Of a DNA stretch of 57,156 nucleotides, positions 11,767 through 12,125 are shown piece by piece. The translations under genes were made by a program, and so were the position numbers. Position 1 is the first letter of the stretch. Each line of letters opens with the position of its first letter. Below the pieces are notes generated by a model. That model searched no databases. It worked only from the letters and a program-made list of their open reading frames with translations, and was not told where the DNA came from. This DNA comes from Deltaproteobacteria bacterium (GTDB taxonomy: Bacteria; Desulfobacterota; GWC2-55-46). The stretch lies in contig JACPGB010000055.1 in assembly GCA_016182655.1 (NCBI GenBank), positions 1 to 57,156 of the forward strand, read 5' to 3'.

Positions 11767-11795
11767 TTGACAAAACAAGCGCTTTCTTGTACTAT
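11767..11795 (+). promoter_or_regulatory. Sigma70-like promoter driving the riboswitch leader
   Basis: TTGACA at 11767-11772 is followed after exactly 17 bases by TACTAT at 11790-11795 (six of six and four of six consensus matches). The predicted start near 11802 lies about 33 bases before the first paired strand of the ZTP aptamer, so the RNA would carry the whole aptamer. Confidence 0.7.
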
Positions 11796-11834
11796 CTTCT
11801 CGCTTAAAAAGTGATGGCGCACTGTGCGCCCGGA

Positions 11835-11907
11835 CCTTCGCGACTGACGGAATCAAGGTGGCAACCACCGGGGAGCGGAGGCTGAAGAGTAGCCGGCCGT
11901 CTGGGCA
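11835..11907 (+). ncRNA. ZTP riboswitch (pfl motif)
   Basis: The aptamer of the pfl/ZTP riboswitch class, which senses the purine intermediates ZTP and ZMP, can be traced here. P1 pairs CCTTCG (11835-11840) with CGGAGG (11876-11881). Inside it lies the conserved GACTGACGG. P2 is GGTGG (11857-11861) with CCACC (11865-11869), followed by the conserved CCACCGGGGAGCG. A short hairpin (GCT 11881-11883 with AGC 11891-11893) leads to GGCCGTCTGGGCA. The class-defining pseudoknot forms between GACGG (11846-11850) and CCGTC (11897-11901). It lies downstream of a promoter and upstream of a terminator. The next gene is icd, which is not a partner I know for this class. Confidence 0.9.
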
Positions 11908-11939
11908 AAAAACGATGGATAAAATTCATCTTTTTTTGC
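11905..11939 (+). terminator. Riboswitch-associated intrinsic terminator
   Basis: GATGGAT (11914-11920) pairs with ATTCATC (11924-11930) around an AAA loop and runs into seven Ts (11931-11937). The stem can extend by A6 with T6 and by GC (11905-11906) with GC (11938-11939). The extension would capture the end of the conserved TGGGCA of the aptamer, a plausible way for ligand binding and termination to exclude each other. Confidence 0.7.
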
Positions 11940-11969
11940 GCACGGGCGGTTTTTTTTTGCCCTGTGCGC
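11938..11969. other. GC-rich hairpin with T9 loop after the riboswitch
   Basis: GCGCACGGGC (11938-11947) pairs with GCCCTGTGCGC (11959-11969) with one bulged T; the loop contains nine Ts. The arms share GCGCAC/GTGCGC with a perfect 7-bp inverted repeat at 11816-11830 (GGCGCAC, T, GTGCGCC) just upstream of the aptamer. The role is unknown; it could be a second termination or stability element. Confidence 0.5.
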
Positions 11970-12039
11970 GCTTTGGGACGGATCGGCGGCTGGAGTTAGG
12001 GCCAGGACACTGCGAAAGCCCCCTAATAGCTCAAAAAAC

Positions 12040-12068
12040 TTGACAAAATACGTGAAATTTGATTTAGT
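12040..12068 (+). promoter_or_regulatory. Sigma70-like promoter for icd
   Basis: TTGACA at 12040-12045, a 17-base spacer, then TTTAGT at 12063-12068 (six of six and four of six matches). The predicted start near 12075 would give icd a leader of about 50 bases that lacks the riboswitch, so icd may have both riboswitch-dependent and independent transcripts. Confidence 0.6.
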
Positions 12069-12125
12069 CAGTGCCTCAAAAAGTCGCCAAAATACCTTGT
12101 GGAAACAAACAGGAGGAATTACGGT

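Follow-up and report, generated by a model that had tools for sequence, protein, structure and literature searches.

A canonical ZTP riboswitch is predicted to control isocitrate dehydrogenase and citrate-cleaving genes in a class of uncultured deltaproteobacteria-like bacteria

Results

The window, meaning the whole 57,156-nt stretch of DNA analyzed here, carries a promoter, a ZMP/ZTP riboswitch aptamer, and an intrinsic terminator ahead of three genes for isocitrate dehydrogenase (IDH) and a citrate-cleaving enzyme pair (Table 1). As originally predicted, icd is the next gene after the riboswitch on the same strand, and its product matches PF03971 (1360 bits) and TIGR00178 (1366 bits). The aclB-like product finds its best PDB match in the large subunit of citryl-CoA synthetase (6hxq_B, E 1.8e-35), with ATP-citrate lyases next. 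The aclA-like gene is intact in genomes G006, G007, G009, and G031; relative to intact 903-residue homologues, the window copy lacks about 29 residues near 17504 and changes frame, a break that may reflect either a genuine mutation or faulty assembly.

Table 1. Features of the riboswitch leader and the icd-aclB-aclA genes in the window
Feature	Position	Strand	Description	Evidence
Upstream promoter-like pair	11767..11795	+	TTGACA-17-TACTAT, sigma-70-like; feeds the riboswitch leader
ZMP/ZTP aptamer	11830..11913	+	RF01750	Rfam score; covariation among 40 class members
P1 stem	11834-11841 / 11875-11882	+		Changes on both sides among relatives in 7/8 pairs
Pseudoknot, 5' strand	11846..11850	+	GACGG	Invariant in 40/40 aligned aptamers
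P2 stem	11857-11861 / 11865-11869	+	Enclosed by P1	Rfam model; class alignment
Intrinsic terminator	11891..11958	+	Hairpin 11891-11951 and T9 11950-11958	Equivalent in 34/34 icd leaders
P3 stem	11892..11906	+	GCC 11892-11894 / GGC 11904-11906	99.2% of cells paired in class alignment
Pseudoknot, 3' strand	11897..11901	+	CCGUC; common to terminator stem
Second promoter-like pair	12040..12068	+	TTGACA-17-TTTAGT; 3' of terminator
Ribosome-binding site of icd	12111..12116	+	AGGAGG
icd	12126..14348	+	Monomeric NADP-dependent isocitrate dehydrogenase, 740 aa, ATG 12126	Profile matches
aclB-like	14437..15738	+	Citrate-cleaving subunit (ATP-citrate lyase beta / citryl-CoA synthetase large subunit homologue)	PF16114, PF08442
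aclA-like	15768..18390	+	Partner subunit, broken in assembly	Intact at 903 aa in relatives

The citrate-cleaving pair (window 14437-18390; L211 2399-6570) has an unusually long A subunit of about 900 residues; that of known ATP-citrate lyases has about 610. In the PDB this long-A-subunit pair is closest to citryl-CoA synthetase, and we liken it to citryl-CoA synthetase and ATP-citrate lyase by homology only. Citrate synthase is encoded in 51 of 62 class genomes, that of the window included; because it co-occurs with the citrate-cleaving genes, sequence does not disclose the direction of the TCA cycle.

Computation established what the aptamer is, that it overlaps the terminator, that the riboswitch-icd pair is conserved, and which genes stand behind the class sites. 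When the whole window was scanned with Rfam, RF01750 was the sole match; it is full length (model positions 1–86 of 86) and scores 57.2 bits, where the gathering score is 39 (E 1.1e-6 over the whole window). The complete pfl-type aptamer of the original prediction, with its P1, its P2, and a GACGG/CCGTC pseudoknot, is thus confirmed, and P3 is present too. Across 40 class aptamers, 95.8% of cells in the whole structure are paired and nine pairs changed on both sides, compared with 4.6 in shuffles; P1 is the covarying element, and the pseudoknot is invariant and paired in every member. Mean pairwise identity among icd leaders is 0.73 in the aptamer versus 0.51–0.61 in the flanks, with a shuffled background of 0.59. 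A chance match was considered as the source of the aptamer and is ruled out by the Rfam score, the covariation, and the terminator statistics given below.

Ligand contacts were placed on the window aptamer through an assumed residue correspondence with the Fusobacterium ulcerans RNA. Under that mapping, the counterparts of U16, G17, C35, G63, C69, and G71 are identical in the window aptamer, and across class relatives the corresponding alignment columns vary little or not at all. In the F. ulcerans RNA, these residues are reported to contact ZMP or its bound Mg (PMC11419147). Because the contact positions are unchanged in the window and its relatives, a changed ligand is unlikely.

Some aptamers and leaders carry additional elements. 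The icd aptamer of G007 (L039 1189-1344) has long insertions in its joining region and keeps all conserved cores. Two riboswitches, L105 (484-603) and L097 (2461-2581), share an insertion of one palindromic hairpin, CCCCCACACCAAA...TTTGGTGTGGGGG, at an identical aptamer position; they come from different genomes and have different targets: icd in G057 and sucC in G059. In the window, a strong palindrome, GGCGCACTGTGCGCC, precedes the aptamer (11816-11830) and another, GCGCACGGGC...GCCCTGTGCGC, surrounds the T9 tract (11939-11969); both are apparently absent from relatives in the genus.

The leader was also predicted to have its own promoter, and the pair at its start fits that description. One such pair lies upstream of the window aptamer, where 0.5 is expected in shuffles; comparable pairs precede the icd aptamer in 22 of 34 leaders, against about two in shuffled sequence.

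In the most stable fold, the P3 5' and CCGUC strands pair with ACGGGCGG in the hairpin at 11891-11951, and nine U follow. The terminator hairpin takes back two aptamer strands, the 5' side of P3 and CCGUC of the pseudoknot, in the standard ZTP ON-switch layout: the window leader contains an expression platform that competes with the aptamer 3' domain. Such competition is common among ZTP riboswitches, though a terminator is not required of each of them. The original prediction was therefore right about the existence of a terminator and wrong about a stop at 11937, since the T7 tract there (11931-11937) sits within the stem, paired with A6 (11907-11912). The small inner hairpin with its T7 might provide a weak additional stop; it is not the terminator form kept in relatives. 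When all T-runs of each leader were surveyed, a terminator reusing CCGUC was found in 34 of 34 Rfam-detected icd leaders and in 62 of 63 other ZTP leaders of the class, whereas shuffling the downstream sequence left one in only 2–10 of the 34.

We surveyed 63 class genomes, all from uncultured deltaproteobacteria-like bacteria, and found 102 ZTP sites in 47 of them. By Rfam detection, 34 sites lie 130–512 nt before a monomeric icd, and a covariance model built from the class added one further icd-linked site in G061. Inspection of the icd upstream regions of relatives, as the original prediction had proposed, therefore places the pair in 35 class genomes from six families. A HIT-family gene lies upstream in many family-f1 genomes, at least 10 other genomes have unrelated upstream genes, and the pair is set in more than 10 different upstream neighborhoods. 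The riboswitch thus accompanies icd itself rather than a fixed arrangement of neighboring genes. Synteny hitch-hiking as a cause of the pair is ruled out by the same variety of neighborhoods.

The association can also be lost. About nine class genomes with an available icd upstream region have no full element; in one, G054 (L054 3709-3795), a truncated aptamer remnant retains only the 5' half, CAACTGACGGAATCAAGGTG, and runs straight into the icd ribosome-binding site. The riboswitch is on this evidence dispensable. ZTP-bearing and ZTP-less copies are intermixed in several clades of the icd tree, in which many forks are weak, as expected of an old association with losses. The class-built model was also run on the icd loci of named public genomes, 80 in number. 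It returned no element in 78, and the two exceptions, the G021 site and the G054 remnant, both belong to the class. In G028, icd (L080; C37 around 60114-62311) has five in-frame stops behind an intact ZTP leader, reflecting either a decayed gene or poor assembly.

The element also occurs in the class before other members of the gene set. G051 has no monomeric icd and has three ZTP sites, one of which precedes a homodimeric-type NADP-IDH (TIGR00127, NF006156), non-homologous to the monomeric enzyme, followed by the aclB-aclA pair. A copy of this IDH with 96% identity occurs without a ZTP element in G048, from another family. The simplest reading is that the alternative IDH moved horizontally and is ZTP-controlled only in the G051 acl operon. 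In G040, the element lies directly ahead of aclB.

A promoter near 12040 had been suspected, and a second promoter-like pair does lie between the terminator and icd. Of the 34 icd leaders, 17 have a pair of this kind (TTGACA-16/18-TATAAT-like) downstream of the terminator, against 1.0 in shuffled sequence, and these pairs mostly read TTGACA-17-TTTAGT. Their frequency would suit a situation in which the riboswitch is real and largely bypassed, with icd expressed mainly from the 12040-12068 promoter and the riboswitch transcript being minor, vestigial, or a short terminated RNA that serves another role; so would G054, which lost most of its aptamer and retains icd. Against this, the aptamer and overlapping terminator are kept in 34 of 34 leaders while their surroundings diverge, half of the leaders have no second promoter of this form, and the element recurs with different neighbors and with a replaced IDH. 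We regard such a bypass as unlikely. Wherever the second promoter exists, the riboswitch probably adds a stress-responsive layer to a basal icd supply that does not depend on it. About half of the class repeats the promoter-like block TTGACAAAA..CGGAAAATTTGGTTTAGTCA.TGCCTCAAA, at 12040-12068 in the window, between terminator and icd; conservation of the block reaches beyond the -35 and -10 elements, and it may contain a regulator site.

Elsewhere in the class, ZTP sites head a further set of genes. The first gene is rnfC at 30 sites, a class-V (serine) aminotransferase at 20, a CPA2 antiporter at five, pntA at four, sucC at four, and aclB and kup at one each; at one site an inorganic pyrophosphatase comes first, then pntA. 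The non-icd set includes sites under the Rfam cutoff (G007 C88, G008 C5, G012, and G021 C112). Where enough sequence was read, rnfC is followed by rnfD, rnfA, and rnfB; the aminotransferase is followed by serA and hisZ, and in the window's genome also by purA. At the G051 sucC site, sucD and a three-subunit 2-oxoacid:ferredoxin oxidoreductase (korABG-like) come next. ZTP riboswitches normally switch on purine and folate genes when one-carbon units are scarce, and a purine or one-carbon target is typical of them without being a defining trait. Such a target is present in the sister serine-serA-hisZ-purA operon and not in icd.

A sample of 395 genomes from the phylum yielded 11 that lie outside the class and have ZTP sites. 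At these eleven loci, the first genes, named from translated sequences and not from a profile search, are glyA (four), fhs (two), a serine aminotransferase or serA (four), and a permease (one); icd, rnf, suc, and pnt are first at none of them. Because serine genes alone are common to class and extra-class sites, the serine target is probably the older one, with icd, rnf, suc, and pnt apparently acquired inside the class.

Such an unusual gene set might instead be explained by a variant aptamer that senses another ligand, for example a different imidazole nucleotide or some central metabolite. In keeping with that idea, purH, fhs, glyA, and folD are the first gene at no class ZTP site, although fhs is found in 28 of 62 class genomes; the window's genome also encodes purH. 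Yet the contact and pseudoknot positions are conserved, class aptamers also head the serine-serA-hisZ-purA operon, and in the rest of the phylum the motif is found ahead of glyA, fhs, and the same serine genes, all of which makes a different ligand improbable. Least credible, and disfavored, is a frozen accident in which the riboswitch landed once before icd and was carried along without function: the HIT-family neighbor shared by many f1 genomes would accord with it, but there are at least 10 other upstream neighborhoods, the aptamer is conserved above its surroundings with covariation, and the element also stands before aclB (G040) and before another type of IDH (G051).

Discussion

We consider it highly likely that the window contains a bona fide ZTP riboswitch that acts as a transcriptional ON switch for icd-aclB-aclA and was recruited in this class to carbon and redox operons. 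The ligand, the direction of switching, and the physiological purpose are what we infer. Characterized ZTP switches provide the model for transcriptional ON switching (PMC7484762; PMC7337938); by that analogy, the window element would likewise turn transcription on. ZTP is a signal of 10-formyl-tetrahydrofolate shortage (PMC7266159).

In the proposed mechanism, transcription would begin at the 11767 promoter. With no ligand bound, the terminator hairpin would take CCGUC, and RNA polymerase would halt in the U9 tract at about 11957. A shortage of 10-formyl-tetrahydrofolate would let the Z nucleotides ZMP and ZTP build up, hold the pseudoknot, and block the terminator, so that icd and the citrate-cleaving genes are transcribed. 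In about half of the genomes, the window's included, the second promoter may add basal expression independent of the riboswitch.

At the level of the class, the switch would have been recruited to icd-acl, sucCD with 2-oxoacid:ferredoxin oxidoreductase, Rnf, transhydrogenase, and the serine-serA-hisZ-purA operon. One-carbon shortage would create demand for carbon skeletons (2-oxoglutarate/glutamate and serine) and for reductant (NADPH and ferredoxin), with supply possibly through reductive TCA carbon fixation. Greater IDH, serine-pathway, Rnf, and transhydrogenase activity would then furnish 2-oxoglutarate/glutamate, serine as a one-carbon donor, NADPH, and reduced ferredoxin. Because relatives across the class keep the arrangement, a folate-stress signal probably tunes central carbon metabolism in these bacteria. 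It was suggested with the original prediction that purine or folate stress would tune the supply of 2-oxoglutarate and possibly the fixation of CO2; this idea gains support from the sister riboswitches, whose targets include sucCD-2-oxoacid:ferredoxin oxidoreductase, the citrate-cleaving pair, Rnf, and transhydrogenase. A more tentative extension, which we hold to be possible and somewhat short of an even chance, is that ZTP directly controls reductive-TCA CO2 fixation and the supply of low-potential electrons and NADPH through dispersed ON riboswitches (icd-acl, sucCD-kor, rnf, and pnt). If so, the input of carbon by autotrophy would be tied, through ZTP, to a shortage of one-carbon units.

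The window element resembles the known ZMP/ZTP riboswitches of Clostridium beijerinckii (pfl), F. ulcerans, and Thermosinus carboxydivorans in architecture, ligand contacts, pseudoknot, and competing terminator. It differs in its genes: known targets are purH, fhs, pfl, glyA, and folD (PMC2864571), whereas here the targets are icd and the citrate-cleaving pair, with sister sites on Rnf, transhydrogenase, and sucCD-2-oxoacid oxidoreductase. The target listing of Weinberg et al. for the ZTP motif has no icd-type gene (PMC2864571). Our literature search, to which the supplementary gene lists of Kim et al. 2015 are external, found no link between a ZTP riboswitch and isocitrate dehydrogenase; in titles and abstracts it found no riboswitch linked to the reductive TCA cycle or to Rnf/isocitrate. 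As far as the searched literature shows, then, the aptamer and platform are canonical and the regulon is what is new. Other classes of the phylum share the aptamer and the serine aminotransferase/serA target but differ in their remaining first genes, as described above.

The gene order also recalls the reductive TCA operons of Chlorobium and Hydrogenobacter, in which IDH adjoins the citrate-cleaving enzyme. The likeness extends elsewhere in the class, where f11 relatives also have sucCD, followed in G051 by the 2-oxoacid:ferredoxin oxidoreductase. Unlike those operons, the class has an A subunit that runs to about 900 aa and has an unusual C-terminal part, and citrate synthase is present as well.

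A canonical riboswitch is redeployed in this class onto central carbon and redox genes, an example of a riboswitch regulon rewired while its aptamer is unchanged. A sensor fixed before icd, the citrate-cleaving enzyme, Rnf, transhydrogenase, and the succinyl-CoA/2-oxoacid genes yields a testable claim, namely that folate stress sets carbon and electron flow.

A separate observation concerns the CPA2 sites. In the window's genome (C37; L206 2012-3655), a ZTP riboswitch precedes a stand-alone CPA2 cation/proton antiporter that has no obvious one-carbon link, and CPA2-linked ZTP sites were seen only in the window's genus.
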